Shown here one piece after another: positions 16,219 to 53,999 of a stretch of DNA of 59,486 bases. A program made the position numbers and the translations under genes. The stretch is from contig QHSP01000039.1 of assembly GCA_003220495.1 (NCBI GenBank), positions 1 to 59,486 of the forward strand, given 5' to 3'. Each line of letters begins with the position of its first letter. Within the stretch, counting starts at the first letter, position 1. A model generated the notes under the pieces. That model had not been told where the DNA came from. It was given only the letters and a program-made list of their open reading frames with translations, and made no database searches. The DNA comes from Candidatus Rokuibacteriota bacterium. Lineage in GTDB: Bacteria > Methylomirabilota > Methylomirabilia > Rokubacteriales > CSP1-6.

Positions 16219-16378
16219 GCTCCGTCGTCGCACCCGCCGCTCGAGGCCGCGTGTCAAAGTCCCGATCGCCGTCTGCGGGATTTTCCGAATGCGCCTTTGG
16301 GGGTTCGGCGAATTGAGTGCGCGTTCCGGAGAACGTAACGTCGAAGTCGTGCATCGCAACGTGACGCGCGCAGAACAC

Positions 16379-16394
16379 TGGCCGCGGAGGAGCG
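16379..16394 (+). promoter_or_regulatory. Weak -24/-12-like sequence before the exopolysaccharide operon
   Basis: TGGCCGCGGAGGAGCG has GG and GC at the right 10-base separation for a sigma-54 promoter and lies 57 bases before the first gene, but the flanking bases match poorly. A GGATTTTCCGA box at 16279-16289 loosely resembles the conserved upstream box found at 47440, 49911 and 54170. The rest of the 250-bp gap shows no other signal. Confidence 0.25.
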
Positions 16395-16450
16395 CGAAGC
16401 CCCACGAAATCGCACAGCGCTCACGAGATCAGGAAAGGGGACGAGTCATC

Positions 16451-18606: not shown

Positions 18607-18617
18607 GGGCCACCACC

Positions 18618-32092: not shown

Positions 32093-33147
32093 GGATCGCG
32101 GTCGTGGCGGCGAGCCTCGACATCCTGGGAGGCCAGTCGATCCAGGCGCAGGCGCTCTGCGCCGGGCTCCGGCAGGCGGGCTACGAGGTCGACTTCGTTC
32201 CGATCAACCCGCGGTTCCCGCGCGGGCTCGGCTGGGTCCGGCGCTACCCCTACGTGCGGACCGTGCTGAACCAGTCGCTCTATCTGCCGAGCCTCCACCG
32301 GCTGCGTCGAGCCGACGTCGTCCACGTCTTCTCGGCGTCGTACTGGTCGTTCCTGATCGCGGTGGCGCCAGCACTTCTGGTGGCGCGTCACTATCGCAAG
32401 CGAATCTTGTTGAACTACCACAGCGGCCAGGCCGACGACCATCTCGAGCGCTGGGGCACGCTCGTCCATCCCTGGCTCGAGCTCGCCCACGAGATCGTCG
32501 TGCCCTCCGAGTATCTCCGCGCGGTGTTCGCGCGACACGGCTACCCGGCGCGCGCCGTGCCGAACCTCGTGGACACGACGCGATTCCGATACCGGGACCG
32601 GATGCCGCCGCACGCGCGCTTCGTATCGGCCCGCAACCTCGAGCCCATCTATCGCGTGAACGTCACGCTCGAGGCGTTCGCGATGGTGCGAGAGCGGTTG
32701 CCGTCGGCGACCTTGACCATTGCCGGGGACGGTAGCGAGCGCGCTCGGCTCGTGCGGCGGGCGGCGGCGCTGGGCGAGCGCGGGATCACCTTCCGTGGGC
32801 GCGTCAACCCCGTGGACATGCCGGCGCTCTACGACGAGGCCGACATCTTCGTGAATTCGTCGATCGTCGACAACCAACCGTTGTCGGTGCTCGAGGCCTT
32901 CGCCGCGGGCCTTCCAGTGGTCTCGACCGCCACCGGGGACATCGCGGCGCTCGTGCGCGACCGCGAGACCGGGCTGGTCATCCCGCCTGACGACGCGTTC
33001 GCGATGGCCAAGGCGATGACGACGATGCTCGAGTATCCGGTCCGCGCCCGGCAGATGGCCCGTCGGGCACGGTCCGAGGTCGAAGCGTTCACGTGGTCGC
33101 GCCTGCGCGAGCAGTGGGATGCCGCCTACGCGGGAGTGCCGGCGTGA
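32089..33147 (+). CDS. Glycosyltransferase family 4
   Basis: A 352-residue GT-B enzyme. N-terminal LDILGGQSIQAQALCAGLRQ, a hydrophobic patch (YWSFLIAVAPALLVARHYRK) that may associate with the membrane, and the C-terminal motif NSSIVDNQPLSVLEAFAAGL, in which the usual first Glu of the E-x7-E motif is Asp. The donor sugar is unknown. It is coupled to the flippase and heparinase-like genes by 4-bp overlaps. Confidence 0.9.
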   Translation: MRIAVVAASLDILGGQSIQAQALCAGLRQAGYEVDFVPINPRFPRGLGWVRRYPYVRTVLNQSLYLPSLHRLRRADVVHVFSASYWSFLIAVAPALLVARHYRKRILLNYHSGQADDHLERWGTLVHPWLELAHEIVVPSEYLRAVFARHGYPARAVPNLVDTTRFRYRDRMPPHARFVSARNLEPIYRVNVTLEAFAMVRERLPSATLTIAGDGSERARLVRRAAALGERGITFRGRVNPVDMPALYDEADIFVNSSIVDNQPLSVLEAFAAGLPVVSTATGDIAALVRDRETGLVIPPDDAFAMAKAMTTMLEYPVRARQMARRARSEVEAFTWSRLREQWDAAYAGVPA

Positions 33148-35339
33148 TCCGACGGCTCGCTCGCGCCGGGGCCGACGAGCTGATCTGCCGGGGCCGTCAG
33201 GAAGCCGCGAAGCTCCTCGAGCGCACCGGCGTGGTCACGCGCGCCGGACTCGGACCGGATCACGGCATGACCCTGGAGCGCTTCCGCGCCCTCACGCCGC
33301 GCCACTTCTTCGACGGGGCGGTGAGTGACCGGACGCCTCGCCTCCTGATCGATCGGATGCCGGGCGCGGTCGACGAGATCGTGAAGGTCGCCGAGGCAGC
33401 GTGCCAGGGCCGTTTCGATCTGCTCGGCTACGAGGGGCTGTCGTTCGGCGATCCGGTGGACTGGCGCCTGGATCCGGTCTCCGGACGTCGCGCACCCCGG
33501 ACTCACTGGAGTCTCGTGAATCCGCTCGACCGGAACTCGGTCGGCGACAGCAAGGTCGTCTGGGAGCTGAACCGTCACCAGTGGATGGTCCAGCTCGGAC
33601 AGGCCTATCGCCTGACCGGCGAGCTTCGCTACGCGCGCGCCTTCACCCGGTATGTCGAGCAGTGGCTCGATGCCAACCCCCCGGGGATCGGGATCAACTG
33701 GGCGAGCAGCCTCGAGGTGTCGTTCAGGCTGATCGCATGGTGCTGGGCGCTCGTGCTCATCCGAGGAGCCCTCGTGTTGTCGTCAGCCCTGTTCGATCGG
33801 ATCGTCCGCTCGATCTGGGACCACGCCGCACACGTGGAGCGCTATCTCTCGTACTACTTCTCGCCGAACACGCACCTGACCGGCGAGGCCCTCGGCCTCG
33901 TCTACGCGGGGCTGATCTTTCCCGACCTGCCGCGCGCCGATCGCTGGCGCGAGCTCGGCACGCGGATCCTGATGGACCAGAGCGCGCGCCACATCCTGTC
34001 CGACGGCGTCTACTTCGAGCTGTCGACGGGCTACCAGCGCTACACGCTCGAGTTCTATCTGCATCTCTTGATCCTCGCCAGACGAAACGGCCGGCCGATC
34101 CCGGCGTCGGTCCTCGAGCGCGTGGCCGGGATGCTCGACTTCGTGCTGGCGCTGCGCTGCCCCGACGGCTCGATGCCCCAGATCGGAGACGCCGACGGCG
34201 GCACGCTCCTGCCGCTCGCGCCGCGCGCCCAGGACGACTTCCGCGGCGTCCTCGCGACCGCGGCCGCCTTCTTCGGTCGCGCCGATAGCGCGTGGGCGGC
34301 CGGTGGTGCGGCCCCCGAGGTGCTCTGGCTCCTGGGCCCGTCCGGACTCGACGCCTTCGACGCCCTGCAGCCGGCGCCGCCGGCCGGCCCGCCGTCGCGC
34401 CACTTCGCGGCCGGCGGATACGCGGTCATGCGGAGCGGCTGGGGCCCCAACGACCATCAGCTGATCTTCGACGTCGGACCGCTCGGCTGTCCCGTGACCG
34501 GCGGGCACGGCCACGCCGACCTCTTGAGCGTGCAGTGCGCCGTCTTCGGCGAGCCGTACCTGGTCGACTCGGGCACGTATTGCTACGCCGGTGATCCCGC
34601 GAGTCGCGACTACTTCCGGTCGACCGCGGCGCACAGCGCCGTGGTGGTGGACGGGGAATCTCAGGCGGCGCCGGTCGGGCCGTTCCGGTGGGCGAAGCGG
34701 CCGGGGGCGCAGCTCCTCGAGTGGCGCTCGGCCCTGGATCTGGACTTTGCCGAGGCGCACCATCGCGCCTACGCCGAGCTGCCTGGGGGTGGCGCCATCC
34801 ACCGGCGCCGCGTGCTCTTCGTCAAGGGCCGCTACTGGGTGGTCGTCGACGACCTCGAGGGTGACGGCGAGCACCAGGTCGACCTGCAGTTCCAGTTCGC
34901 GCCCCTCGAGGTCCAGGTCGACCCCACCCTCTGGGCGTGCGCGCGAGGGCGGAGAGGGAGCGAGCTCCTCGTCCGGCCGTTCGCGAACGTGTCGCTCAAG
35001 GCGGTCCTGCACACCGGCGAGCTCGAGCCGCTCCGCGGCTGGGTTTCGCCGATCTATGGACGGCGCGAGCCCGCGCCGCTCCTGGTCTACTCCACCGTCA
35101 CGAGCCTTCCACTGCGCGTGGCGACCCTGCTCCTGCCGAGCGCCGGCCCGCGCGCGGCGATGCCTTCCGTCTCGGCGGTGAACGACGCGAGCGGCGCGCC
35201 CGTAGGCCTCGTCCTCGGGGACACGGGCGAGCGCATCGCGTTCGGCGAGCGCGGACTACCCGAAATCGCAAACCATTCGATGCCGGGGGAGCGCGACACG
35301 AAGCCGCCGGCGTCGTGGAGAACAAATGGTGACCCATGA
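33144..35339 (+). CDS. Heparinase II/III-family polysaccharide lyase
   Basis: A 731-residue protein with an alpha/alpha toroid N-terminal half (HWSLVNPLDRNSVGDSKVVW, NWASSLEVSFRLIAWCWAL, YYFSPNTHLTGEALGLVYAG) and a C-terminal beta-sandwich half (GGHGHADLLSVQCAVFGEPY, VDSGTYCYAG). Tyr, His and Asn residues in these segments are the usual catalytic set. No signal peptide is evident. Such lyases are standard in exosortase-A exopolysaccharide loci and may trim or release the uronate-containing polymer. GTG start in a GTGA overlap. Confidence 0.9.
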   Translation: MIRRLARAGADELICRGRQEAAKLLERTGVVTRAGLGPDHGMTLERFRALTPRHFFDGAVSDRTPRLLIDRMPGAVDEIVKVAEAACQGRFDLLGYEGLSFGDPVDWRLDPVSGRRAPRTHWSLVNPLDRNSVGDSKVVWELNRHQWMVQLGQAYRLTGELRYARAFTRYVEQWLDANPPGIGINWASSLEVSFRLIAWCWALVLIRGALVLSSALFDRIVRSIWDHAAHVERYLSYYFSPNTHLTGEALGLVYAGLIFPDLPRADRWRELGTRILMDQSARHILSDGVYFELSTGYQRYTLEFYLHLLILARRNGRPIPASVLERVAGMLDFVLALRCPDGSMPQIGDADGGTLLPLAPRAQDDFRGVLATAAAFFGRADSAWAAGGAAPEVLWLLGPSGLDAFDALQPAPPAGPPSRHFAAGGYAVMRSGWGPNDHQLIFDVGPLGCPVTGGHGHADLLSVQCAVFGEPYLVDSGTYCYAGDPASRDYFRSTAAHSAVVVDGESQAAPVGPFRWAKRPGAQLLEWRSALDLDFAEAHHRAYAELPGGGAIHRRRVLFVKGRYWVVVDDLEGDGEHQVDLQFQFAPLEVQVDPTLWACARGRRGSELLVRPFANVSLKAVLHTGELEPLRGWVSPIYGRREPAPLLVYSTVTSLPLRVATLLLPSAGPRAAMPSVSAVNDASGAPVGLVLGDTGERIAFGERGLPEIANHSMPGERDTKPPASWRTNGDP

Positions 35340-36460
35340 TCTGGATGGCATTCCTCGCTTTGGGTCTCGTCGTCGTTTTCGTCTCGTACGGCGGGTACGC
35401 GCTGTGGGTGGCGTGGCTCGCGCGCGTGCGACCGGTTCCGACGGCCGCGCGGTATCTGCCGGACGCGCTCCTGCCCAGCGTCACCTGTGTGATGGCGGCC
35501 TCGAACGAGGCCGTGCTCATTCGCCACAAGCTCCGTGGACTCACCCGGCAGGACTACCCGGCGGACAAGCTCGCGATCATCGTGGTGAGCGACGGGTCGA
35601 CCGACGCCACCGACGCCATCGTGCGGGCCTGGGCCCGTCGTGATCCCCGGATCCGCCTGTTGAGGACGGAGCGCCGGAGCGGTAAGCCCACCGCGCTGAA
35701 CCTGGCGCGTGGGCACATCGTGAGCGACGTCACGGTGCTCATGGACGTTCGCCAGGCTCTCACGCAGGGCGCGCTCCGCGAGCTCGTGGCGCAGCTCGCC
35801 GACCCCGGCGTCGGCGTCGTGTCCGGCGACCTCCGGGTCAAGGGCGACGCGTACTGGACGTACGAGGGGTTCGTGCGCAAGTGCGAGTCACGCTCCGGCT
35901 CGATGGTGCAGGTCACCGGCTCGCTCTACGCGGTCCGGACCGCGGATCTGCCGGAGATTCCTCCGGACACGATCCTGGACGACGTGTACGTGCCGCTGAA
36001 GGTCGCGCTGAGCGGCCGGCGGATCGTCATGGCGGAGGGCGCCGGTAGCCTCGACGTCGCCACCCGCACGGCGAGCGACGAGTTCGTGCGCAAGGTGAGG
36101 ACGCTCGCTGGACTCGTCCAGATCTGCCACCACGTGGACGGCTGCCTCAATCCCGCGAAGAACCCGGTCTGGGGGCGCTTCGTCCTGCACAAGCTCTCTC
36201 GGCTGGCCTGCCCGTACGGTCTGCTCCTCGTGCTGGCGAGCTCCGCGATGGCCGAGGGCCTGGGATACGGCACGGCGCTCATCACGGGCGTCGCGGTGGG
36301 CCTCATCGGCCTCACGCAGTGGCGCGGGCCCTCGCCGCGTCTGGTGTCCCTGCTCAGATCCTTCCTGGCGCTGAACCTGGCGGCGCTGTGGGCGATGCCG
36401 TCCTACTACCTCGGGCGCACGTCGGTGACGTGGCGACGGGTGGGGATCGACCGGACATGA
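35336..36460 (+). CDS. Glycosyltransferase family 2, membrane-bound
   Basis: A 374-residue processive-type GT-A enzyme. N-terminal helix (MIWMAFLALGLVVVFVSYGG), donor loop ASNEAVLIRHKLRGLTRQDY then IIVVSDGSTDATDAIVRA, an acidic MDVRQ at the DxD position, and DDVYVPLKVALSGRRI. The C-terminus has two or three hydrophobic segments. It resembles hyaluronan/cellulose-synthase-like transferases but lacks a clear QxxRW motif. Overlaps both neighbours by 4 bp. Confidence 0.88.
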   Translation: MIWMAFLALGLVVVFVSYGGYALWVAWLARVRPVPTAARYLPDALLPSVTCVMAASNEAVLIRHKLRGLTRQDYPADKLAIIVVSDGSTDATDAIVRAWARRDPRIRLLRTERRSGKPTALNLARGHIVSDVTVLMDVRQALTQGALRELVAQLADPGVGVVSGDLRVKGDAYWTYEGFVRKCESRSGSMVQVTGSLYAVRTADLPEIPPDTILDDVYVPLKVALSGRRIVMAEGAGSLDVATRTASDEFVRKVRTLAGLVQICHHVDGCLNPAKNPVWGRFVLHKLSRLACPYGLLLVLASSAMAEGLGYGTALITGVAVGLIGLTQWRGPSPRLVSLLRSFLALNLAALWAMPSYYLGRTSVTWRRVGIDRT

Positions 36461-37254
36461 GCCCGCGACCGCTCCGCCTGCACATCATCACCGAGGAGGA
36501 TCCGTTCTACCTCCCGGTCTTCTTCCGGGAGTTCCTCGCCGAGCTCCCGCCGGACCGGTTCGAGCTCCTGGGCATCGACATCACGCCCCCCTTGAATCAA
36601 CCGACGCGCCGCGCGCTGGCGCGAAAGCTCTACAGCTTCTACGGCGGGCTCGACTTCGTCCGCCTGCTCGGCCGCTACGCGGCTTCGAAGACGCTCGACC
36701 TGCTCGCCCCGCGTCGCTGGTGGAGCGGCACCATCAATCGGCTCGCGGCCCGCCACCGGGTCGCCTGCCGGGTCGTCAAGAACGTCAACGCGCCCAAGTA
36801 CGTCGCCGAGCTGCGCCGGCTCGCGCCGGATCTGCTCGTGTCGGTGGCGGCGTCGCAGATCTTCAAGCCGGATCTCCTGTCGGTCCCGCGGCTCGCCGCC
36901 GTGAACGTCCACACGGGTCCGCTGCCGAGCTATCGCGGGATGATGCCGGTCTTCTGGCAGATGTACGACCGTCGGAAGTCGATCGTCGTCACCCTGCACA
37001 CGATGACGGCCGACGTCGACGTGGGCACGATCTTGCTGCAGCGCGAGGTGCCGCTCAACGGCGATCGCAGCCTCGACCTCGTGATCCGCAAGATGAAGCG
37101 CGAGGGCGCCCAGACGCTGATCGAGCTGCTGGAGCGCTATCGCACGGGGGCCGTGGAGCCCGTCGCCATGGACCGCTCCCGGGAGCACTACCACTCATTT
37201 CCGGGACGCGCCGAGGCGGCACGGTTCCGCCACATGGGGTATCGCCTCGTATGA
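36457..37254 (+). CDS. Formyltransferase-fold protein
   Basis: A 265-residue protein of the methionyl-tRNA/sugar formyltransferase fold. The Asn-His-Asp catalytic set is present: AVNVHTGPLPSYRGMMPVFW, then TLHTMTADVDVGTILLQREV. In polysaccharide loci such enzymes N-formylate amino sugars using N10-formyl-THF. The neighbouring deacetylases would expose the amine needed for this, so N-formyl sugars in the polymer are a plausible inference. Overlaps both neighbours in ATGA. Confidence 0.85.
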   Translation: MSPRPLRLHIITEEDPFYLPVFFREFLAELPPDRFELLGIDITPPLNQPTRRALARKLYSFYGGLDFVRLLGRYAASKTLDLLAPRRWWSGTINRLAARHRVACRVVKNVNAPKYVAELRRLAPDLLVSVAASQIFKPDLLSVPRLAAVNVHTGPLPSYRGMMPVFWQMYDRRKSIVVTLHTMTADVDVGTILLQREVPLNGDRSLDLVIRKMKREGAQTLIELLERYRTGAVEPVAMDRSREHYHSFPGRAEAARFRHMGYRLV

Positions 37255-38138
37255 TTCCTTGCCTCCTGACCTTCGACATCGAGGACTGGTTCCAGGTTGA
37301 GAACCTCCGGCCGCTCTTTCCACCCGAGAGCTGGGAGGCGATCCCGCGCCGGGTGGCGAGCGCCACGCGCCGTGTGCTGCGGCTGCTCGCGGAGCATCAG
37401 ATCCGCTCGACCTTCTTCGTCCTGGGCTGGGTGGCCGAGCGCGAGCCCGCGCTCGTCCGCGAGATCGCCGCGAGCGGCCACGAGATCGCGAGCCACGGCC
37501 ATAGTCACGTCATGCCGATGCAGCTCACCCTGACCGAGTTCCGCGACGACATCGACCGGTCACGCAAGGTGCTCGAGGACGTCTCGGGGCGGGCGGTCGT
37601 CGGCTACCGCGCGCCGTCGTTCAGCATCGATCGCAAGCGACTGACGATCCTCGAGGGCTGCGGATTCCGCTACGACTCGAGCCACCATCCCTTCAGCCTC
37701 CACGAGCGCTACGGCCGGCTCGGCGATCTCGGGCCACCGGTCGTGCCCGGAGTGTATGCCCTCGGCGAGCGGATGGTGGAGCTCGCGCTTCCGGTCGAGC
37801 GCGTGGGCCCGCTCGCGCTGCCCGTGTCCGGTGGGGGCTACTTCAGGCTGTACCCGGCCGCGCTCTATCGCACGCTCGTCGCGCGCTCGATCGCCCGGCT
37901 GGGCTCGTATCTGATGTACCTGCACTCGTGGGAATTCGACCCCGAGCAGCCGCGCGTCCCCGGCGCCGGCCGGGTCCGAACGGCCAAGCACTACGTGAGC
38001 CTCTCGCGCACCTTGCCGCGCATGCGCCGACTCATCGCGATGCTCGAGGGCGCCGGCGCCAGCTTCATGACGGCGCGGGACTTCATCGAGCGCGTGGTGG
38101 CTCCCGGGGCGTCGTCGCCTCGCGTGGAGGGAGCATGA
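37251..38138 (+). CDS. Exosortase-A-type polysaccharide deacetylase
   Basis: A 295-residue NodB-fold deacetylase with the subfamily opening LLTFDIEDWFQVENLRPLF. The Asp/Glu-Asp metal pair is in TFDIEDWF, His-x3-His in SHGHSHVMP, and the C-terminal DUF3473 region includes YLMYLHSWEFDPEQPRV. Members of this subfamily occur almost only in XrtA/PEP-CTERM exopolysaccharide loci, the best single sign of what kind of locus this is. No signal peptide. Overlaps both neighbours by 4 bp. Confidence 0.92.
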   Translation: MIPCLLTFDIEDWFQVENLRPLFPPESWEAIPRRVASATRRVLRLLAEHQIRSTFFVLGWVAEREPALVREIAASGHEIASHGHSHVMPMQLTLTEFRDDIDRSRKVLEDVSGRAVVGYRAPSFSIDRKRLTILEGCGFRYDSSHHPFSLHERYGRLGDLGPPVVPGVYALGERMVELALPVERVGPLALPVSGGGYFRLYPAALYRTLVARSIARLGSYLMYLHSWEFDPEQPRVPGAGRVRTAKHYVSLSRTLPRMRRLIAMLEGAGASFMTARDFIERVVAPGASSPRVEGA

Positions 38139-39013
38139 GGCCGAAGGCGCCGTCCCGTTCGGCCGTCGCGTTGGAGAAGCTCTCGGACTGGGACGTCTAC
38201 CGGTTCGGCCTCCGAGTCGGCGCACGGACCCTCCCGCTCGCGCCGCGGGACGCGCTCAAGCGGCTCGTCCTGCCCGTCGAATACATCCGCTGCGCGGAGT
38301 TCCGCTACGTGCTCGAGCACCTGGACGTCGGCGCGGAGCACCGGGTCCTCGATATCGGGAGCCCGAAGCTGCTGTCGCTGTTCCTGGCCTCGCGCGTCGG
38401 CGCGCGCGTCTGGGCGACGGACCTCGTCGACTACTTCTTCCCGGCCTATGCCGCCTACGCCGCGAGCGTGCTGGGCTCCCGCCGGGAACGCTATCTCATG
38501 GAGACGCAGGACGCCCAGGGGCTCACGTACGAGGACGGCGCGTTCGACCGCGTCTTCTCGGTCTCGGTCATCGAGCACATCCCGGGGGACGGTGACGTCG
38601 CGGCCATGCACGAGATCGCGCGCGTGCTCAAGCCCGGCGGGATCGTCTGTCTCACCGTGCCCTGGAGCGACCGGGGCTACGTCGAGGAGTTCCATCGTCC
38701 GGACGCCGATGCCTACTGGGTGAAGCCGGGCGACGACGAGCGGGTGTTCTACCAGCGCGCTTACGACCGCGACTCGATGCAGAAGCGTCTGCTCGGCCAT
38801 CATCGTCTCGACGTCGTCGACGTGAGCTTCTGGGGCGAGCGCCGGATCGCGGTCGAGGACGCGATCCTCAACCGTCGCCTGCCTCGGCTCGCCCGGTACG
38901 CGATGCTCCCCGCGCACTTCGCGCTCAACCGCCTCTTCTTGAGACGCCTCGGGGAAGAGGAGCCCTCGCGGAAGAAGGTCGCGTGCGTGACCCTCCGCAA
39001 GCGGGCGACCTGA
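38135..39013 (+). CDS. Class I SAM-dependent methyltransferase
   Basis: A 292-residue methyltransferase. SAM motif I is RVLDIGSPKLLSLFLASRVG, motif II ATDLVDYF, then FDRVFSVSVIEHIPGDGDVA and LKPGGIVCLTVPW. It probably methylates a sugar or lipid-linked intermediate; the target is unknown. ATG at 38135 in ATGA with the deacetylase. The next gene follows after 13 bp, one of only three non-overlapping junctions in the operon. Confidence 0.9.
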   Translation: MRPKAPSRSAVALEKLSDWDVYRFGLRVGARTLPLAPRDALKRLVLPVEYIRCAEFRYVLEHLDVGAEHRVLDIGSPKLLSLFLASRVGARVWATDLVDYFFPAYAAYAASVLGSRRERYLMETQDAQGLTYEDGAFDRVFSVSVIEHIPGDGDVAAMHEIARVLKPGGIVCLTVPWSDRGYVEEFHRPDADAYWVKPGDDERVFYQRAYDRDSMQKRLLGHHRLDVVDVSFWGERRIAVEDAILNRRLPRLARYAMLPAHFALNRLFLRRLGEEEPSRKKVACVTLRKRAT

Positions 39014-39026
39014 GGAGGCGCACGCC

Positions 39027-40952
39027 ATGTGCGGCATCGTCGGCACCGTCGGCCTGAATCCACTCGAGCCCGTGGACGAGGCGCGGCTCAAGATCATGCG
39101 AGACGTCCTACGTCACCGCGGGCCCGACGGCGAGGGGCTGTGGACCGAGGGCCACGTGGGGCTCGGCTTCCGGCGGCTCGCGATCATCGACGTCGCGGGC
39201 GGCGCCCAGCCCATGCCCAACGAGGACGGCAGCGTATGGGTCGTCTTCAACGGGGAGATCTACAACCACGCCAAGCTCCGGCCGTGGCTCGAGGCCCGCG
39301 GTCATCGCTATCGCACCCGTAGCGACACCGAGACGATCGTCCACCTTTACGAGGAGGAGGGCGAGCGCTGCGTGGAGCGACTCCAGGGCATGTTCGCGTT
39401 CGCGGTGTGGGATCGGCCGCGGCGGCGATTGCTCCTCGCTCGCGACCGGCTCGGCATCAAGCCGCTCTACTACGCGCTCACCGATCGCGAGCTGGTCTTC
39501 GCCTCCGAGATCAAGGCGATCCTCGCGGGGGGCGCGGTGACGCCGGCCCTCAACCGCGCGATCGTCCCCGAGTTCCTCGCCAACCGCTTCGTCGCCGGCT
39601 CCGAGACGTTCTTCCGAGGGGTGACGAAGCTCTTGCCCGGACGAACCCTGACCTGGTCGGCGGACGAGGGGGTGCGCGAGCGTCGCTACTGGAGCTTGCC
39701 GGCCGAGGTGGACGGCGCCGACATGACCCCGGTGCAGGCCGCGGGCCGGGTCCGGGCCGACCTCGAAGCGGTGGTACGGAGCCACCTCATGAGCGACGTG
39801 CCGCTCGGCCTCTTCCTCTCCGGCGGGCTCGACTCGAGCGCCCTCGCCGCGCTGATGTCGCGGATGGTCCGAGCCCCGATCCGCACGTTCTCGGTGGGCC
39901 TGCCCGACACCGACTCGAACGAGCTCGGCTACGCGCGGCTGGTGGCGCGCGCCGTTCGCTCCGTGCACCGCGAGGTCGTCGTCACGGCCAGCGAGTTCTT
40001 CGACGCCCTGCCGCGTCTCATCCGGCACGAGGACGAGCCGATCGCGTTCACGTCGAGCGTGCCGCTCTACTTCGTCTCGCGCCTCGCCGCCGAGGACGTG
40101 AAGGTGGTGCTCACCGGCGAAGGCGCCGACGAGCTGTTCCTCGGCTATCACCGGTACCGGATCACGCACTGGAACGACCGGCTCGGCCGGGTCTATGAAA
40201 GGCTGGCGCCCTCGGGCCTGCGCCGGACCATCGGCCGATCGCTCAGCCGCCTGCCGCGCCGGCTCGGCCGCTACGCGACGCGCACGTTCCTCGGGCTCGA
40301 GACCGGCCCCCGGCAGCTCTTCTGCGAAAACTTCGCGGTCTTCCCGACCGCGCTCCAGCAGGACTTGCTGGCGGATCCAGATCTCCTCGCGGCGCGCGAC
40401 CCGTACCAGGCGGCGCTCGAGCGCTACGCCGCGGCGCCGGGCGGCCACCTCGATCGGATGAGTCACGCCGATCTACAGACCTATCTCGTCGAGCTCCTGA
40501 TGAAGCAGGACCAGATGAGCATGGCGGCCTCGATCGAGAGCCGCGTGCCGTTCCTCGACCACGAGCTCGTGGAGCGCGTCGCCGTGATGCCCGGTCGTCT
40601 CAAGCTCCGCGGCTGGCAGACCAAGGCCGTGCTGCGCGCGGCCATCCAGGACGTGGTGCCGCGGGCGATCCTCGCGCGGCGGAAGATGGGCTTCCCGGTT
40701 CCGGTGGGCCGCTGGCTGCGCGGACCCTTCCGGCCCCTCGTCGACGAGCTCGTGCTGGGGCCGCGAGCGCTCGGCCGCGGACTCTTCGACCGGAGCGCGT
40801 TGCGCCGACTGGCCGAGTCGCACCGGGCAGGCCTCGCCGACCACGGCGACCGGCTCTGGCTCCTCATCAACCTCGAGCTCTGGCAGCGCATGTTCCTCGA
40901 CGGTGAGGACGCCGGCGGCCTCATGGACGGTCTCGAGGCGTCATGCGCCTGA
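39027..40952 (+). CDS. asnB: Asparagine synthase-type amidotransferase
   Basis: A 641-residue glutamine-dependent enzyme. Cys2 (MCGIVGTVG) is the glutaminase nucleophile, with RHRGPDGEG and VFNGEIYN. The synthase domain has the PP-loop LSGGLDSSALAAL and VLTGEGADELFLGYHRY. Exosortase-A loci usually carry an AsnB paralog; it may amidate a uronate carboxyl of the polymer instead of making asparagine, which would fit the two uronate-forming dehydrogenases here. Good GAGG ribosome site. It overlaps the next gene by 10 bp. Confidence 0.9.
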   Translation: MCGIVGTVGLNPLEPVDEARLKIMRDVLRHRGPDGEGLWTEGHVGLGFRRLAIIDVAGGAQPMPNEDGSVWVVFNGEIYNHAKLRPWLEARGHRYRTRSDTETIVHLYEEEGERCVERLQGMFAFAVWDRPRRRLLLARDRLGIKPLYYALTDRELVFASEIKAILAGGAVTPALNRAIVPEFLANRFVAGSETFFRGVTKLLPGRTLTWSADEGVRERRYWSLPAEVDGADMTPVQAAGRVRADLEAVVRSHLMSDVPLGLFLSGGLDSSALAALMSRMVRAPIRTFSVGLPDTDSNELGYARLVARAVRSVHREVVVTASEFFDALPRLIRHEDEPIAFTSSVPLYFVSRLAAEDVKVVLTGEGADELFLGYHRYRITHWNDRLGRVYERLAPSGLRRTIGRSLSRLPRRLGRYATRTFLGLETGPRQLFCENFAVFPTALQQDLLADPDLLAARDPYQAALERYAAAPGGHLDRMSHADLQTYLVELLMKQDQMSMAASIESRVPFLDHELVERVAVMPGRLKLRGWQTKAVLRAAIQDVVPRAILARRKMGFPVPVGRWLRGPFRPLVDELVLGPRALGRGLFDRSALRRLAESHRAGLADHGDRLWLLINLELWQRMFLDGEDAGGLMDGLEASCA

Positions 40953-42148
40953 TCTGGGTGAAGGTCGGAGGGCTCTGGCCGGTCAACACAGGCGGCCGCA
41001 TCCGCAGCTTTCACATGCTCCGCGAGCTCTCGCACCGGCACGAGGTGACGCTCCTCACGACTCACGGACCATCGGAGGATCCCCGGGCGCTCGAGGCCGC
41101 GCTCCCGCGCTGCGAGGTCGTCTCGGTCCCGTGGGCCCTGGCCAAGCGGGGCAGCGCCCGCTTCGCGCTGGCGCTCGTCCGGTCCTGGCTGTCGTCCCTG
41201 CCAGTCGATCTCTACAAGGCGCGGGTCCCGGCGCTCGGCCGCGAGATCGAGCGGAGGCTCGCCAACGAGCGCGTCGATCTCATCGTCGCCGATTTCCTGC
41301 TGGCCACGCCCAACGTCACGCGCGCCGCCGCGCCTCCCACCGTGCTGTTCGCCCACAACGTCGAGCACGTGATCTGGCAGCGGATGCGCGAGGTCGAGCC
41401 CCGCGCCTGGCGCCGTATCTTGCTGGCGCTCGAAAGCCGCAAGATGCGCCGCTACGAGGCGAGCGCGTGCGCGCGCGCCCAGCTGACGATCGCGGTCTCG
41501 GACGCCGACCGCCACCTGCTGGCCGCCGCCGCGCCGGGCGCGCGCGTCCGCGCGGTGCCGACGGGCGTCGACGTCGACTACTTCGCCCCCGACGGTGTCG
41601 CGGAGATTCCGGGCCGGCTCGTCTTCACCGGGTCGATGGACTGGTACCCGAACGAGGACGGCATCGTCCACTTCATCGACGCCGTGCTGCCGCGCATTCG
41701 CCGCGAGGTGCCGGCGGCCGCCTTGACGGTGGTCGGACGCAATCCGTCCGCGCGTCTTCGCGGCGCCGCGGCGGCGGCCGGCGTTCGAGTCACCGGTCTG
41801 GTCGACGACGTCCGGCCGCACATGGCCGAGGCGGCCGTCTACGTCGTGCCGCTCCGGATCGGCGGCGGCACCCGGCTCAAGATCTTCGAGGCGCTCTCGA
41901 TGGCCAAGGCGGTCGTCTCCACGACGGTGGGGGCCGAGGGCTTACCGCTGGCGCCGGGTCGGCATTTCCTGCAAGCCGATGAGCCCGCCGGGTTCGCCGA
42001 AGCCGTGACATCGCTCCTGCGGGATGCCGCCCGGCGCCGCGCGATCGGCGCCGCGGGCCGCCGCCTCGTCGAGGAGCGGTACTCATGGTCCAGGGTCGTC
42101 GACGAATTTGAACACCAATGTGGAGAGGTGCTTCGCCATGCGAGTTAG
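40943..42148 (+). CDS. Glycosyltransferase family 4 (exosortase-A-associated type)
   Basis: A 401-residue GT-B enzyme beginning LIWVKVGGLWPVNTGGRIRS. The C-terminal domain shows FTGSMDWYPNEDGIVHFIDA and VVPLRIGGGTRLKIFEALSM, which is the pattern of the TIGR03087-like PEP-CTERM/EpsH-associated transferases. Donor unknown. It overlaps asnB by 10 bp and the following dehydrogenase by 11 bp. Confidence 0.9.
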   Translation: MRLIWVKVGGLWPVNTGGRIRSFHMLRELSHRHEVTLLTTHGPSEDPRALEAALPRCEVVSVPWALAKRGSARFALALVRSWLSSLPVDLYKARVPALGREIERRLANERVDLIVADFLLATPNVTRAAAPPTVLFAHNVEHVIWQRMREVEPRAWRRILLALESRKMRRYEASACARAQLTIAVSDADRHLLAAAAPGARVRAVPTGVDVDYFAPDGVAEIPGRLVFTGSMDWYPNEDGIVHFIDAVLPRIRREVPAAALTVVGRNPSARLRGAAAAAGVRVTGLVDDVRPHMAEAAVYVVPLRIGGGTRLKIFEALSMAKAVVSTTVGAEGLPLAPGRHFLQADEPAGFAEAVTSLLRDAARRRAIGAAGRRLVEERYSWSRVVDEFEHQCGEVLRHAS

Positions 42149-43439
42149 CGTGTTCGGTCTCGGGTACGTGGGTTGCGTGACGGCGGCTTGTCTGGCGAAG
42201 GCCGGCCATGCGGTCGTCGGCGTGGACGTGAACGCCGAGAAGGTCGCGATGATCAACACGGCGACCCCGCCGATCGTCGAGCCCGGCCTGCCCGAGCTCT
42301 TGCGCGAGGTGGTGGGGACCGGACGCCTGCGGGCGACGACGTCGAGCGACCAGGCGGTCGCCGAGTCCGACGTCTCGCTGATCTGCGTGGGCACGCCCAG
42401 CCGCGCGAACGGCCGCATCGACCTCGACGCGGTCGTCCGCACCGGCCAGAGCATCGGCCAGGCGGTGCGCAAGCGCGCCGAGCCGCACGCCGTGGTGCTG
42501 CGGAGCACGGTGCTGCCGGGGACGGCCGAGCAATACCTCGTGCCGGCGCTGCTCGCCGGCGCCGGCGGGCGGGCGGCGACGCGGGTCGCGGTGAACCCGG
42601 AGTTCATGCGCGAGGGCTCCTCGCTGAGCGACTTCGCCAGGCCTCCGATGACGCTCGTCGGCTGCGGCGACCCGGCGACGGCGGCGCTCCTGCGCCTGCT
42701 CTACGAGAGCGTCCAGGCGCCGTTCGTCCACACCTCGATCCGCACCGCAGAGATGGTCAAGTACGCCGCGAACGCGTACCACGCGCTCAAGGTGTGCTTC
42801 GCCAACGAGGTGGCCGACGTCTGCGCCGCGCTCGGAGCCGACGGCAACGAGGTCATGCGCGTGTTCGCCATGGACCGCAAGCTGAACGTGTCCGAAGCGT
42901 ATCTGAGGCCGGGCTTCGCGTTCGGCGGCTCCTGTCTGCCGAAGGATCTCCGCGCGCTGCTCCACGCCGCCCGCGCCGCCGACGTGTCGACACCGGTGCT
43001 CGGGTCGATCCTGCCGTCGAACGAGGGGCAGGTCCGCCGCGGCGTCGAGGCGGTGCTGGCGTTGCGACGCCAGCGGATTGGCGTGGTCGGCCTGTCCTTC
43101 AAGGCGGGAACCGACGATCTCAGAGAAAGTCCGATCGTCGGGCTCGTCGAGACGTTGATCGGCAAGGGGTGCGACGTCAGGATCCTCGACCGCAACGTCG
43201 CGACGGCGCGCCTGGTGGGCGCCAACCGCCGTTACATCGAGCAAGAGATCCCGCACATCGCGTCTCTGATGTGCCCGAGCGCCGAAGCGCTGCTGGCCCA
43301 CGCCGAGGTCATCGTGATCGGCAACGCGTGCGAGGACGCGACCGAGGTGCTGGCCGCGGCACAGCCGGAGCACCTGACCATCGACCTCACCCGGGGCCAC
43401 GCGACGCGATCGGTGGGGCGAGGTGGCGCGGGGAGCTGA
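42138..43439 (+). CDS. GDP-mannose/UDP-glucose 6-dehydrogenase family
   Basis: A 433-residue NAD-dependent nucleotide-sugar dehydrogenase. NAD motif SVFGLGYVGCVTAACLAKAG, MVKYAANAYHALKVCFANEV, catalytic Cys in FAFGGSCLPKDLRAL, and C-terminal LSFKAGTDDLRESPIVGLVE. The FGGSCLPKD and ESP segments fit GDP-mannose dehydrogenase (AlgD) slightly better than UDP-glucose dehydrogenase, but this is not certain. It would supply a second uronate precursor. ATG at 42138 lies inside the end of the glycosyltransferase gene. Confidence 0.88.
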   Translation: MRVSVFGLGYVGCVTAACLAKAGHAVVGVDVNAEKVAMINTATPPIVEPGLPELLREVVGTGRLRATTSSDQAVAESDVSLICVGTPSRANGRIDLDAVVRTGQSIGQAVRKRAEPHAVVLRSTVLPGTAEQYLVPALLAGAGGRAATRVAVNPEFMREGSSLSDFARPPMTLVGCGDPATAALLRLLYESVQAPFVHTSIRTAEMVKYAANAYHALKVCFANEVADVCAALGADGNEVMRVFAMDRKLNVSEAYLRPGFAFGGSCLPKDLRALLHAARAADVSTPVLGSILPSNEGQVRRGVEAVLALRRQRIGVVGLSFKAGTDDLRESPIVGLVETLIGKGCDVRILDRNVATARLVGANRRYIEQEIPHIASLMCPSAEALLAHAEVIVIGNACEDATEVLAAAQPEHLTIDLTRGHATRSVGRGGAGS

Positions 43440-43442
43440 CGG

Positions 43443-45035
43443 ATGCCGACCCCCAGAGCCTTCACGCTCGGCGCGCTGCTGGTTCTCATCGCGTCGGCCG
43501 CCAGCCCGGCCGAAGGGCCAGCCGTCGCGCAGCAGCCGTCGGCGGTCGTCGATACCGCGGCGGTCGAACCATCGGGCCGCACCATCGCGGTGCCCGGCGA
43601 CGGAGACCTACAAGCGGCGCTCGATGCCGCCCGGCCGGGCGACGTCGTCACGCTCGAGCCCGGCGGAGTCTATCGAGGGTCGTTCACGCTGCCGAAAAAG
43701 TCCGGATCGGGCTGGATCGTCGTGCGTACCCGCGGCGACGCGGCGACGGCTCCGGCGGGGACCCGGGTCGACCCGGGCCAGGCCCGCACGCTCGCACAGC
43801 TCGTGGCGTCGTCGGGGTCGGTCGTGCGTACCGCGCCGGGCGCGCATCACTATCGCCTCAGCGGCCTCGACATCCGGCCGACCGAGGGCGCCTTCCTGTA
43901 CACCCTCGTCCAGATCGGCTCGGCCGAGACCGCGATGGAGGACGTCCCGCACCACGTGATCGTCGAGCGATGCCTCATCCGCGGCGACCCGCGGCGAGGG
44001 GCCCGCCGCGGCGTCGCGCTGAACGGCGCGCACGCCGCGGTGATCGACTCGTACATCGCGGACATCAAGGAAGTGGGCGCCGACTCCCAGGCGATCGCCG
44101 GCTGGAACGGGCCCGGCCCGCTCAAGATCGCCAACAATTACCTCGAGGGGGCCGGGGAGAACGTCATGTTCGGCGGCGCCGATCCGTCGATCCGCGATCT
44201 CGTGCCCTCCGACATCGAGATCCTCCGCAATCACATGGCCAAGCCGCTGGCCTGGAAGCCGGGCGACCCCGCGTACGCGGGCACCGCGTGGACCGTCAAG
44301 AACATCTTCGAGCTCAAGAATGCCCGGCGCGTGCGCGTCGACGGCAATCTCCTGGAGCACAGCTGGGTCCAGGCCCAGATCGGCTTCGCGGTTCTCCTGA
44401 CCGTGCGCAATCAAGACGGGCGCGCGCCGTGGGCGGTCGTCGAGGACGTGACGTTCGTCAACAACGTGATCCGGGGCGCGACCTCGGGCGTCAACATCCA
44501 TGGCCGCGACAACACCCACCCGAGCCAGCCGACGCGACGCATCGTGATCAGGAACAATCTGTTCGTCGACATCGGCGGCCCGCGCTGGGGCGGCGAGGGC
44601 CGGCTCTTTCAGATCGTGGACGGCACGAGCTCGATCGTCATCGACCACAATACGGCGATCCACATCGGCAACATCATCACCGCCGAGGGACCGCCGCACC
44701 ACGGCTTCGTCTTCACCGACAACATCGTGGCGCACAACACCTACGGCATCGCCGGCACCGGCGTCGGGACGGGGACGCAGGCCCTGGACGCGCTCTTCCC
44801 GGGCGCGATCGTGCGACGCAACGTGATCGTGGGCGGGAGCTCGGCCGAGTATCCGCGCGACAACTTCTTCGTGCGCTCCTGGGAACAGGTCAAGTTCGAG
44901 GATCTGTCCCAGGGACGCGTGCGACTGACCGCGAGCAGCCCCTTTCGGCGCGCCGGCCTGGACGGGACCGACGTCGGCGTCGACGACAACGCGCTGAGAC
45001 CGACGATCCGTCCAGGAGGAGACGGCCGCCGATAA
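43443..45035 (+). CDS. Secreted right-handed parallel beta-helix protein
   Basis: A 530-residue exported protein. Signal peptide PTPRAFTLGALLVLIASAAS ends near an Ala-rich cleavage region. A long stretch with repeated V-x-x-N-x-x and HN-type rungs (residues about 50-480) predicts a pectate-lyase-like beta helix. The conserved segment VGADSQAIAGWNGPGPLKIA and NNYLEGAGENVMFGGADP (about 210-245) recurs in the same register in the protein encoded at 51312-53999. It may bind, cut or epimerise the exported polymer; no catalytic residues can be assigned. Last gene of the operon, 3 bp after the dehydrogenase. Confidence 0.88.
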   Translation: MPTPRAFTLGALLVLIASAASPAEGPAVAQQPSAVVDTAAVEPSGRTIAVPGDGDLQAALDAARPGDVVTLEPGGVYRGSFTLPKKSGSGWIVVRTRGDAATAPAGTRVDPGQARTLAQLVASSGSVVRTAPGAHHYRLSGLDIRPTEGAFLYTLVQIGSAETAMEDVPHHVIVERCLIRGDPRRGARRGVALNGAHAAVIDSYIADIKEVGADSQAIAGWNGPGPLKIANNYLEGAGENVMFGGADPSIRDLVPSDIEILRNHMAKPLAWKPGDPAYAGTAWTVKNIFELKNARRVRVDGNLLEHSWVQAQIGFAVLLTVRNQDGRAPWAVVEDVTFVNNVIRGATSGVNIHGRDNTHPSQPTRRIVIRNNLFVDIGGPRWGGEGRLFQIVDGTSSIVIDHNTAIHIGNIITAEGPPHHGFVFTDNIVAHNTYGIAGTGVGTGTQALDALFPGAIVRRNVIVGGSSAEYPRDNFFVRSWEQVKFEDLSQGRVRLTASSPFRRAGLDGTDVGVDDNALRPTIRPGGDGRR

Positions 45036-50027: not shown

Positions 50028-50043
50028 TGGCATCGCGGCGGCC
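50028..50043 (+). promoter_or_regulatory. Weak -24/-12-like sequence before the acyltransferase
   Basis: TGGCATCGCGGCGGCC has GG and GC ten bases apart. It could use the same conserved box (49911-49923) in the opposite direction, about 105 bp upstream. The match in the -12 half is poor. The rest of 49924-50190 holds no gene that I can see. Confidence 0.25.
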
Positions 50044-50190
50044 ATTGACGTCGAGGATTGCGGCCCGGGGACCGCGGGTTCAGGGCTTTTCCACAGCCGC
50101 TTGCGGCGGTTGCCCGATTCGGTCCCTCATTCGCGCCGCGTACGCTCGAACGCGATCATTGCGGTCTCCGACACGACGGCGGGATCCCTG

Positions 50191-51315
50191 ATGCGCGGCG
50201 ACCGGATCCCGTCGCTCGACGGATTCCGGGCGATCTCGATCGGGCTCGTCCTGTTCGGTCATCTGCTGGGCACCTCGGGTTTCTTTCTCCCCCACACGCT
50301 CAATGACCACCTCGCGCTGGGCGAGCTCGGGGTGCGCGTCTTCTTCGTCATCTCGGGCTTCCTGATCACGAATCTCCTGCTGACGGAGGTGGCCGCCACC
50401 GGCCGGATCCACATCGGGCGCTTCTATCTCCGCCGCACGTTCCGGATCTTTCCGCCGTACTACGTCTTCATCCTGGCGCTCGTCGTCACCGAGTTGGTGC
50501 GGTGGATCCAGCTCGCTCCCGGCGACCTCTTCCATACGCTCACTTACACGAGCAACTACCACGTCACGCGCTCATGGAATGTCGGCCACACCTGGTCGCT
50601 CTCGGTCGAGGAGCAGTTCTATCTCCTGTGGCCCGCGTTGCTCGTCCTCCTCGGAGGCCGTCGGGCGATCTGGCTCGCCGCCCTGTTCGTCGGCGCGGCT
50701 GGTGCGGCTTGGACTGTGGGAGCTCACGGTCTCGGCGCGGGAGGGCGTCGGCCACCGATTCGAGGCGATCGCCGACTCGATCGCCGTCGGCTGTGTGCTC
50801 GCAGGCGCACGGTCGTGGCTGCACCGCCAACCGCTCTATCATCGGGTGCTCGTCTCACGGTGGCTATTCCTGGCTCCGGTCGTCGTCGTCCTGTCGGGAG
50901 CTCTCAGCCAGCATCCGCGGATCGACTTCTTCGTCGGCTTCACGTTCCGCAACGTTGTGGTCGCTCTCTGCATCGATCGGTGGGTCACTACCCCTCCGAC
51001 CGGGTCGGGCGCGTCCTGAACTCACGGCCGTTCGTCTTCGTCGCCCTGATCAGCTACTCGATCTATCTGTGGCAGCAGCTCTTCCTCAACCGGGACGCGA
51101 TGTCGCTGCCCACGAGCTTTCCGTTGAACATCACCCTGGCCATCGTGGCCGCGCTGGCCTCGTATTATCTCGTCGAGCGCCCATCCCTGCGCCTGCGCCA
51201 GCGCCTCGAGCACCTGCTCTTTCCCAAGCGCGCCGAGCGCGCCGCGACGGTCCCGGCGGCGCCGGAGCGCCGGACGCTCCATCCCGAGGCGGAGCGCCCG
51301 GCGCCGGCTTCCTAG
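50191..51315 (+). pseudogene. Acyltransferase 3 family protein with two compensating frameshifts
   Basis: A membrane O-acyltransferase that begins DRIPSLDGFRAISIGLVLFG and shows VRVFFVISGFLITNLLL, FYLRRTFRIFPPYYVFILAL and WSLSVEEQFYLLWPALLVLL. After AALFVGA (about 50695) family similarity continues one frame over (RLGLWELTVSAREGVGHRF, VVVVLSGALSQHPRIDFFVG) and returns to the first frame at about 50988 with YPSDRVGRVLNSRPFVFVAL. A one-base insertion followed by a one-base deletion explains this. Repaired length is near 374 aa, normal for the family. It would acetylate an exported sugar. Either a decaying gene or consensus errors. Its TAG stop lies within CTAG, shared with the opposite gene. 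Confidence 0.85.
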
Positions 51316-53999
51316 AGACCGCCGGCCAGGACGGCGCTACCGATCGCGCCGCTGACGTTCGCGATGACCACGCCGAACGCCATCGCCGAGCTCGAGGCCT
51401 GGCTGCTGGTGTAGAAGACGGTCCCGTTCTTGGAGTACGTCACGACGCCCGCCTGCACGCTGATGCGGAAGACGTCGCCAGCCGCGAACGTGACATCCCT
51501 GCGGTAGACCCCTCCTTCGCGAACCTCGGCGATGTTGCCCTGCAGGCGGATGCCGAAGGCGATGGTGGCGGGGTTCGTGACGCTGAAGCCTGATGTGAGG
51601 CCGGCAACGCGCAGCGGCCCGGTGGCGCCGGCGGTGAATTGCGCGTAGCCGTTCGCCCCACTGATCTGCTGCTGGGAGGCGGCCCCGGCGTCGTTGCACC
51701 CGTCGCAGCCCGCGGTCTTGGTGAGCGAGTTGCCGGCCGCGGTCACGTTGACGGGATTGCTCCAGGTGATGCTCGCGGGCGCGGAGCCCGAGCCAGAGCC
51801 CGAGCCCGGGGTGGGAGAGGGAGAGGCGGACGGGCCTGCCGCGGACCCGCCGATCACAGCGCCGGCAACCACCCCGTTCCGGTTGGCGAGCGCGGCCGCC
51901 AGCACGAGCGGGTACGCGGGAGCGGCCTGGCTCGTATAGAAGACCGTGCCGTTCTTGGAGTAGCGCACGACGCCCGACTGGACGGCGACACGGAACACGT
52001 CTCCGGCCACGAACGAGGTGTCGGTGCGGTAGGCTCCACCTTCGCGAACCTCGGCGGTGGCGCCCTGGAAACGGATGCCGAAGGCGATGGTGCCCGGGTT
52101 CGAGGAGGCGAAGGACTGCGTGAGGCCAGTCGCACGCAGCGGCCCGGTGACGGAGGGACTGAACTGGGCGTAGCCGTCACCCGCGGTGATCGTCTGCTGC
52201 GAGATGGCGCCCGCATCGTAGCAGCCGTCGCAGCCTCCCGTCTTGGTCACCGAATTGCCGTTGGCCGTGACATTGACGAGGTTGGTCCAGGTGACGTTCT
52301 GCGCTGCGGCGTTGCCGGGAGCCGGCGCTGGCGAGAGGGCGGGCGCTGGAGCCGGCGCCGGCGCGGGAGCCGGGGACGGCGACGCCGCCGGGGCCGACGA
52401 CGCGGCCATGGCCGTCGCCATCGCGGTGAAGTCGACGCCGACGTCCTTGCCGTCAGTGCCGGCGCGGACGTAGGGCGTTCCCGCGGCGAGCGCGTAGTTG
52501 CGTCCGGCCAGGTCGATGAAGCCGACGGCGGAGAGGGCCGACGGGTAGTAGTTGTCGGCCGGGAAATTGGAGGCCAGCCCGCCGACGATTGCGTTGCGCG
52601 CGAACGAAGCGCCGGGCAAGTAGGCGTTGATCGCCTGCATCCCGAGCCCAACGCCGTAGTCGCCGAAGACTCCGTAGAGGTTGTAGGACAAGATGTTGTT
52701 GGTGAAGACGAAGCTTGTCGCGGAGTGCAGCGACGTCGCGTAGGTCGCGGTGATCATGTTGCCGGTCTGGAGCACGGTGTTGTGATCGATGACGATGTCG
52801 GTGCCACCGTCCATGTCCTGCAAGAAGACACCCGTCCCGTTCCAGGCGCCGCCGATGTCGTCGAACAGGTTGTTCTGGACCAGGATGCGCTGCGTCTGCT
52901 GGCTCGGATGGATGTAGTCGGTGCCCATCATGTTCAGGGCGGCCCCGCTGTGGCGCACGATGTTGTTCGTGAACGTCACGTCCCGTACGGCCACCCACGG
53001 CGAAGTGCCGTCCTGGTTGCGCGGGGTGAACAGGATGCCGTATCCATTCTGCGCATCGGTCCAGTTGTTCTCGAACAGGTTGCCGTCGACCAGGATGCGC
53101 TGGGCGTTCTTCAGCTCGAAGATGTTCTTGACCGACCAGTGGATCCCGGCGTAGCTCGAGCCGTCCGCCCGCCACGAGAGCGGCTTGACGAGGTAGTTCT
53201 TGCGGAATTCGATATCAGACGGCACGAGGTTCGAGATGCCCGGATCCGCGCCGCCGAACAAGACGTTCTCGCCGGCGCCCTCCAGATAGTTGTTCACGAT
53301 CTTGAACGGTCCGGGACCGTTCCAGCCGGCGATCGCCTGGCTGTCGGCGCCGACCTCGTGGTGATCGGACAGATACGAATCCACGACCGCCGTGCGGGCG
53401 CTGTTCATCAGGATCCCCCGGCGGATGTTACCGGTGGGCGTGCCGTGGATGTAGCAGCGGTCGAAGACGATGTCGGTCGGAACTTGCGCGAGCGAGGTGT
53501 TGCCGCCCGGTGCCTCCAGCGCCACCAGCCCGTAGTTGGTGGCGCTCGTCGACGCCCACGTCGTCGTGATCTCGACGCCGACGAACCGGAAGTGGTGGGC
53601 GCCGGCCGCCGTGCTGATCGCGGGTGCGGTGTTGGGGCTGACGATCTTCGGCATGAGGCTCGCCTGACCCGGGCCCACCCGCGTGCCCGCAGCCGGCAGG
53701 CTCGAGAGCGCCGAGCTCTGGATATAGATCCAGCCGCTGCCGCTCGTCACCGGTAGAGTGAAGTTGCCGGTGTAGGAGGCGCCGGCCTGCAAGACGATCG
53801 CGTCGCCGGGCTGCGCCGAGTTGAGCGCGCTCTGGAGATCGCCGCCGGCCGGAACGCTGGTCTGTCGTCCCGGCGCTGCGTACGTCGTGTCGAGGAACAC
53901 TCGCGGGCGCTCCGGAGCTTGGGCCGAGAACGTTGGCGCCGCTCCGAGCAGCGTGAGCGCGACAGCCGGACCGAGAACAAACTGCGGCCATTTGAACAT
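51312..53999 (-). CDS. Secreted beta-helix protein with duplicated C-terminal domain
   Basis: An 895-residue exported protein. Signal peptide MFKWPQFVLGPAVALTLLGA to about residue 26. A right-handed beta helix spans about 45-520 and is homologous to the protein at 43443 (same segment VGADSQAIAGWNGPGPFKIV and NNYLEGAGENVLFGGADP). A Pro/Ala linker (about 530-567) is followed by two copies (569-718 and 744-895) of a beta-rich domain. Each copy has a CDGC motif (GGCDGCYDAGA, AGCDGCNDAGA) and ends KNGTVFYTS plus a hydrophobic strand; a Ser/Gly/Pro linker separates them. No PEP-CTERM or LPXTG signal is present. GAGAAAGGAAG precedes the ATG. A -24/-12 promoter with the conserved box lies upstream. 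Confidence 0.9.
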   Translation of the reverse strand: MFKWPQFVLGPAVALTLLGAAPTFSAQAPERPRVFLDTTYAAPGRQTSVPAGGDLQSALNSAQPGDAIVLQAGASYTGNFTLPVTSGSGWIYIQSSALSSLPAAGTRVGPGQASLMPKIVSPNTAPAISTAAGAHHFRFVGVEITTTWASTSATNYGLVALEAPGGNTSLAQVPTDIVFDRCYIHGTPTGNIRRGILMNSARTAVVDSYLSDHHEVGADSQAIAGWNGPGPFKIVNNYLEGAGENVLFGGADPGISNLVPSDIEFRKNYLVKPLSWRADGSSYAGIHWSVKNIFELKNAQRILVDGNLFENNWTDAQNGYGILFTPRNQDGTSPWVAVRDVTFTNNIVRHSGAALNMMGTDYIHPSQQTQRILVQNNLFDDIGGAWNGTGVFLQDMDGGTDIVIDHNTVLQTGNMITATYATSLHSATSFVFTNNILSYNLYGVFGDYGVGLGMQAINAYLPGASFARNAIVGGLASNFPADNYYPSALSAVGFIDLAGRNYALAAGTPYVRAGTDGKDVGVDFTAMATAMAASSAPAASPSPAPAPAPAPAPALSPAPAPGNAAAQNVTWTNLVNVTANGNSVTKTGGCDGCYDAGAISQQTITAGDGYAQFSPSVTGPLRATGLTQSFASSNPGTIAFGIRFQGATAEVREGGAYRTDTSFVAGDVFRVAVQSGVVRYSKNGTVFYTSQAAPAYPLVLAAALANRNGVVAGAVIGGSAAGPSASPSPTPGSGSGSGSAPASITWSNPVNVTAAGNSLTKTAGCDGCNDAGAASQQQISGANGYAQFTAGATGPLRVAGLTSGFSVTNPATIAFGIRLQGNIAEVREGGVYRRDVTFAAGDVFRISVQAGVVTYSKNGTVFYTSSQASSSAMAFGVVIANVSGAIGSAVLAGGL
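51315..51770 (-). repeat. C-terminal lectin-like domain, copy 2
   Basis: Encodes residues 744-895 of the long beta-helix protein. It aligns with copy 1 without large gaps and well over half the residues are identical by eye, including AEVREGG, SKNGTVFYTS and CDGC. Confidence 0.85.
51846..52295 (-). repeat. C-terminal lectin-like domain, copy 1
   Basis: Encodes residues 569-718. The GDVFRVAVQSGVVRYSKNGT segment is typical of SPRY/concanavalin-like carbohydrate-binding folds; that fold is an inference from the pattern. Confidence 0.8.

Follow-up and report, generated by a model that had tools for sequence, protein, structure and literature searches.

A predicted secreted beta-helix protein with tandem SPRY-like domains encoded near an exopolysaccharide locus of a Rokuibacteriota bacterium

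Domain organization and internal duplication of the 895-residue protein

The window analyzed here is a stretch of 59,486 nucleotides from Candidatus Rokuibacteriota bacterium (contig QHSP01000039.1), and the gene of interest is an open reading frame (ORF) at 51312..53999 on its minus strand that encodes a predicted secreted protein of 895 residues. Orthologues of the same architecture are present in two genomes of the same genus (loci L003 and L004). The protein begins with a hydrophobic N-terminus that is probably a Sec signal peptide, judging from its sequence (residues 1–27, 53919..53999 minus), and for which the predicted local distance difference test score (pLDDT) of the structural model is <50. 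This is followed by a predicted right-handed parallel beta-helix, assigned as lyase/epimerase-like from an AlphaFold2 (AF2) model and its closest folds (residues about 43–535, 52395..53873 minus), an Ala/Pro/Ser linker (residues 536–568, 52296..52394 minus), a first SPRY-like domain termed copy A and delineated by alignment, genome search and tree (residues 569–718, 51846..52295 minus), a Ser/Gly/Pro linker (residues 719–743, 51771..51845 minus) and a second SPRY-like domain termed copy B and delineated by an AF2 model and structural alignment (residues 744–895, 51315..51770 minus). Both copies contain a CDGC motif, at residues 590–593 in copy A (52221..52232 minus) and 765–768 in copy B (51696..51707 minus), together with a KNGTVFYTS motif starting at residues 682 and 857, respectively.

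An initial annotation, made from the sequence alone, had proposed two C-terminal copies with these limits and motifs, and local alignment bears this out in full. Copies A and B share 60% identity over 155 residues without gaps, with an alignment score of 496 compared with a maximum of 75 among 1000 shuffled sequences, ruling out a chance repeat as the source of the likeness. At the DNA level the copies are 76% identical across 375 bp. A search of the whole 5.98-Mb genome revealed no further copies beyond these two. In a phylogenetic tree copy A falls together with its counterparts in the two same-genus genomes (SH-like approximate likelihood ratio test, SH-aLRT, 88) and copy B with its own (98), indicating that the tandem arrangement predates the split of the three genomes and ruling out a recent duplication.

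Fold and family assignment of the repeated domain

Structure prediction of a single copy, a check proposed with the initial annotation, used copy B and 18 natural sequences and gave an all-beta AF2 model with a mean pLDDT of 92 and a predicted template modelling score (pTM) of 0.88. When this model was aligned to known structures, ranks 1–23 were all SPRY/PRYSPRY entries or complexes containing one, the top match being RanBP10 (5jia; Z 16.2, 2.3 Å, 147 aligned residues) with 5jiu and 2yyo tied. An archaeal legume-lectin domain (Z 13.2) and CBM66 (Z 13.8) ranked below these entries. A Foldseek search was concordant (top match 7ccb, E 7.9e-5). The structural alignment and Foldseek results thus place the domain as a SPRY-like fold within the wider concanavalin-like superfamily; the model is a concanavalin-A-like sandwich of the SPRY/B30.2 type. 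The domain had previously been left without a name; its fold at least can now be given one. The sandwich matches those of RanBP9/10, ASH2L and the TRIMs across the whole domain (Z 13–16, 2.3–3 Å), although identity to the entries in ranks 1–23 is just 6–13% and the setting here is bacterial and secreted. CBM66, a carbohydrate-binding module of Bacillus subtilis, likewise presents a concanavalin-type sandwich on a secreted protein, but at 6% identity the likeness is one of fold only.

Sequence searches did not place the domain in a described family. Pfam and NCBIfam searches gave nothing convincing for the 895-residue protein, nor did Pfam with 18 family members or Pfam and NCBIfam with 31, and single-sequence searches of the PDB with the protein or a single copy produced no match. 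When Pfam, NCBIfam and the PDB were searched with the full-length protein, individual copies and two alignments, the only convincing match for the domain was a phage chain, 26gp_Q, considered below. None of 31 family members matched PF00622 (SPRY) at E values up to 10, and the domain was therefore not filed as a member of that family. Stray matches of single members were weak, namely CBM26 (E 0.07) and a ricin-B-type lectin (E 0.049), both among the 18 members searched against Pfam. No description of this domain family was found among the papers listed by the literature searches. The SPRY fold and the general plan of an enzyme joined to a binding module are already known; neither the family itself nor the CxxC subfamily within it, nor the connection with exopolysaccharide loci and phage virions, appears to have been catalogued.

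The CDGC cysteine pair

To characterize the cysteine pair, 69 domains were aligned and, with three gapped rows left out, 66 were scored. Both cysteines were present in 31, neither in 35 and a single one in none, and 30 of the 31 pair-bearing domains have no further cysteine. In the 895-residue protein itself the sole cysteine outside the two CDGC motifs is C182. Members without the pair often carry Trp or charged residues at these positions. On a tree built without the CDGC loop, by a quick method that left many weak forks, the cysteine state changes at least six times. As around half of the family lacks both cysteines they are not essential to the domain, and with 35 of 66 domains devoid of them an essential CxxC is ruled out.

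The pair had been proposed to form either a disulphide or a metal site. The all-or-none pattern favors the former, and most likely the CDGC cysteines would form a small intradomain disulphide pinning the loop that joins strand three to strand four, whilst an isolated pair of cysteines in a protein predicted to be secreted is less likely to be a metal site. CxxC is a classical metal-binding and thioredoxin-type motif, and the concerted gain or loss of both cysteines would also suit a metal or redox site. Each domain provides only two thiols, though, and the family alignment shows no conserved histidine beside them; furthermore, with around half of the members lacking both cysteines such a role could not be common to the whole family. 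We therefore regard a metal or redox function as improbable. CDGC thus marks a subfamily, in which the pair may serve as an optional small disulphide.

Distribution and partner modules

A scan of GTDB contigs identified 10 loci in records labelled Rokubacteria, Methylomirabilota, Acidobacteria (including Terriglobia and Sulfopaludibacter) and Deltaproteobacteria. Whole-genome searches detected the domain in 6 of 59 relatives, in at least 17 of 396 genomes from the phylum of a Terriglobia record and in at least 3 of 282 from the phylum of a Deltaproteobacteria record, the latter two figures being lower bounds as part of the candidates per genome was scored. The domain was found mostly in Acidobacteria and Rokubacteria. 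Its partners include beta-helices (L003, L004, L006, L010, L017 and L086), a GH18-family domain in a protein with two copies of the SPRY-like domain (L011), exo/endonuclease-phosphatase domains (L089 and L090), FG-GAP (L007) and RHS repeats (L082 and L091), Ig-like or fn3 domains (L078, L086, L093 and L096) and, in one protein, NPCBM and galactose-oxidase-like modules (L087). These architectures, together with the Pfam and NCBIfam searches, support the earlier reading of a beta-rich domain, which has no sequence match in Pfam or NCBIfam and recurs in other secreted proteins. A putative binding-module role fits them, for example the GH18 protein with two copies.

Several loci showed unusual arrangements. 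A single open frame of 6354 residues (L106, G632:C103:24828-30212) contains 11 tandem copies, none with the CxxC pair, and the domains within the RHS-repeat proteins of L082 and L091, from the phylum of the Terriglobia record, also lack it. Nine SPRY-like matches lie within approximately 34 kb of the Terriglobia contig JAIQFX010000059.1 (L006 and L007), on HAF-like, FG-GAP and beta-helix proteins, with homologues of the window's exopolysaccharide genes nearby. A remnant full of stops at G263:C18:9660-9902 (L107) is possibly a decaying copy, and a beta-helix relative is also encoded in this stretch (L052).

The beta-helix and its linkage to exopolysaccharide genes

An AF2 model of the N-terminal region built from seven sequences (pLDDT 73, pTM 0.82) is a right-handed parallel beta-helix. 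Its closest folds are RbmB and 6kfn (both Z 25.1), PL6 (Z 24.7) and AlgE6 (Z 24.5). A PDB profile search also matched 6kfn (E 1.2e-5) over 55 N-terminal positions; the PL6 and 6kfn lyase profile matches span only 36–55 N-terminal positions and there was no family-level match over the catalytic region. The beta-helix resembles the PL6 and 6kfn alginate lyases and the AlgE epimerases in fold (Z 24–25), with weak profile matches at the N-terminal cap, and those enzymes carry other C-terminal modules. RbmB is not known to have SPRY-like domains. It shares 15% identity with the protein described here and is tied in score with several other enzymes. RbmB of Vibrio cholerae is described in PMC11637428 as a lyase that acts on the bacterium's own biofilm polysaccharide and is predicted to adopt a parallel beta-helix. 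In the protein described here, many charged positions do not vary across seven relatives, for example K272, K291, E295, K297 and R327.

A paralog of the beta-helix is encoded at 43443..45035 on the plus strand (49% identity over 523 residues) and, as previously proposed, shares the helix and contains neither C-terminal copy. It lies directly after a putative XrtA/PEP-CTERM-type exopolysaccharide locus (16289..43439 plus), recognized by profile matches and assigned to this type by inference, as the XrtA-system scores fall below the NCBIfam curated cut-offs. Genes of the locus encode an export protein, a chain-length protein and an ATPase, all three resembling the XrtA/PEP-CTERM system, as well as a sugar transferase, two nucleotide-sugar dehydrogenases, an O-antigen-ligase/Wzy-like protein, a flippase, glycosyltransferases, a heparinase II/III protein and an asparagine synthase (AsnB). 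The paralog adjoins exopolysaccharide genes in relatives as well as in the window. A YvcK/CofD-related gene, scoring above the NCBIfam cut-off, is also located inside the locus (20311-21510).

Linkage was counted across 38 loci, with L007, which has both domain types, scored as CxxC. Of the 21 CxxC-type loci, 14 have a beta-helix of the same family joined to the domain or encoded next to it (seven fused, seven adjacent only), compared with 1 of 17 loci of the other type (nominal Fisher p 1.6e-4). Exopolysaccharide genes homologous to those of the window were present at 8 of 21 and 0 of 17, respectively (nominal p 0.005). These p-values overstate the significance because the loci are related.

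Proposed role of the protein

We propose, with a probability of about 0.5, that the ORF encodes a secreted beta-helix protein which resembles lyases and epimerases of uronate polymers and works on the bacterium's own exopolysaccharide, where its tandem SPRY-like domains, stabilized by a CxxC disulphide, would hold it. Following secretion, the modelled beta-helix would probably cut or edit an acidic exopolysaccharide produced by the neighboring locus, and the two SPRY-like domains would probably act as tandem binding modules that keep the enzyme on the polymer. In favor of this reading are the predicted folds of both parts, the variety of partner modules, the all-or-none cysteines, the linkage counts, the age of the tandem arrangement, and the two nucleotide-sugar dehydrogenases and the heparinase II/III protein of the locus.

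A number of observations weigh against this proposal. The ORF lies on the opposite strand from the exopolysaccharide genes, approximately 7.9 kb from their end and beside an acyltransferase gene. Seven of the 21 CxxC loci have no beta-helix nearby, and counting the orthologous window, L003 and L004 loci once reduces the beta-helix linkage to 12 of 19. The beta-helix model reaches a pLDDT of only 73, and lyases, epimerases, hydrolases, NosD and tailspikes are inseparable by score (Z 21–25). NosD, tailspikes and PfbA score near the lyases, at Z 23–24, and the fold therefore does not fix the function.

These close scores would also be expected if the beta-helix were a non-catalytic adhesin, stalk or scaffold and the whole protein a structural component of the matrix, and the secreted Acidobacteria relatives with up to three SPRY-like copies (L006) resemble what a multivalent matrix protein might look like. 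Nonetheless, the top fold matches are enzymes of uronate polymers, the paralog adjoins a nucleotide-sugar dehydrogenase gene, and the charged residues invariant across seven relatives are candidates for catalysis. A purely structural role thus seems rather unlikely.

The ligand of the SPRY-like domains is a separate question. The eukaryotic SPRY fold is mostly protein-binding, and a protein ligand is conceivable here too; the copies might contact a protein, or attach the enzyme to the cell envelope or to matrix proteins, rather than to the polysaccharide itself. Consistent with this, SPRY domains that bind proteins head the fold matches, relatives occur in phage virion proteins and in large multi-repeat proteins where protein contacts are equally likely, and many host proteins (with FG-GAP, RHS or HAF-like repeats) have no recognized carbohydrate enzyme. 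Set against these observations are the GH18-family host with two copies and the host with NPCBM and galactose-oxidase-like modules, the clustering of CxxC-type genes with exopolysaccharide genes and with a fold resembling that of polysaccharide lyases, and a fold common to galectin- and CBM66-like lectins. We consider a protein ligand unlikely and a role in holding the enzyme on exopolysaccharide the better explanation of the two. This work delineates a family of SPRY-like modules on secreted proteins of uncultured soil phyla that is open to experimental test, has no Pfam or NCBIfam model, is linked to exopolysaccharide genes and is related to phage virion proteins. Should its members bind glycans, this would bear on the targets of the SPRY fold before its use in eukaryotic immunity and could provide new probes for bacterial matrix sugars.

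Relatives in phage virions

When a profile of 31 family members was searched against the PDB, chain Q of 26gp, named 'Structural protein', was matched (E 1.2e-6). Fourteen of the 31 members matched PHROG 19691, a virion structural protein family (best E 1.2e-13), whilst copy B of the window protein on its own had no PHROG match. Profile alignment with hhalign gave 97.6% for gp015 of Cellulophaga phage phi13:1, which is annotated as structural from tandem mass spectrometry (MS/MS); a single-sequence search with gp015 found no PDB chain. Among the structure matches in BFVD were a structural protein of phi13:1 and, from a marine phage, a protein that bears the name of ASH2. Searches of plasmids and phages with copy B as query gave no match, and with a Trp-type relative as query they returned seven phage records and one Bacteroidota plasmid. 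Pattern matches were obtained in IMG/VR viral contigs, among which no relative was confirmed, and the phage and plasmid proteins hosting the domain had no SPRY match in Pfam. Members of the family are therefore related in sequence to PHROG 19691, phi13:1 gp015 and 26gp chain Q; these differ in being phage structural proteins, and the aligned segments of phi13:1 and 26gp chain Q lack CxxC.

SPRY lectins of phage tails are reported in both PMC7824862 and PMC8195603; the former describes them in tail and virion proteins of jumbo phages, and the latter places the origin of SPRY in phage tail proteins and states that prokaryotic conflict systems using SPRY-like domains have not yet been seen. It is conceivable, if doubtful, that a single uncatalogued prokaryotic SPRY-like family is common to matrix-polysaccharide proteins of soil bacteria and to phage virions. 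Bacteria would then employ it to keep enzymes on the exopolysaccharide that they make, and phages would recognize such surfaces with a version of it. If true, the family would be a present-day relative of the SPRY lectins in phage tails from which the SPRY immunity domains of eukaryotes have been proposed to derive.

The adjacent acyltransferase gene

Compared with an open orthologue in L003, the acyltransferase gene beside the ORF (49987-51315) is read in frame 1, then for approximately 102 residues in frame 2 and then again in frame 1. Each of the pieces is 82–85% identical to the L003 orthologue, a pattern consistent with either two compensating assembly indels or a recently damaged gene.

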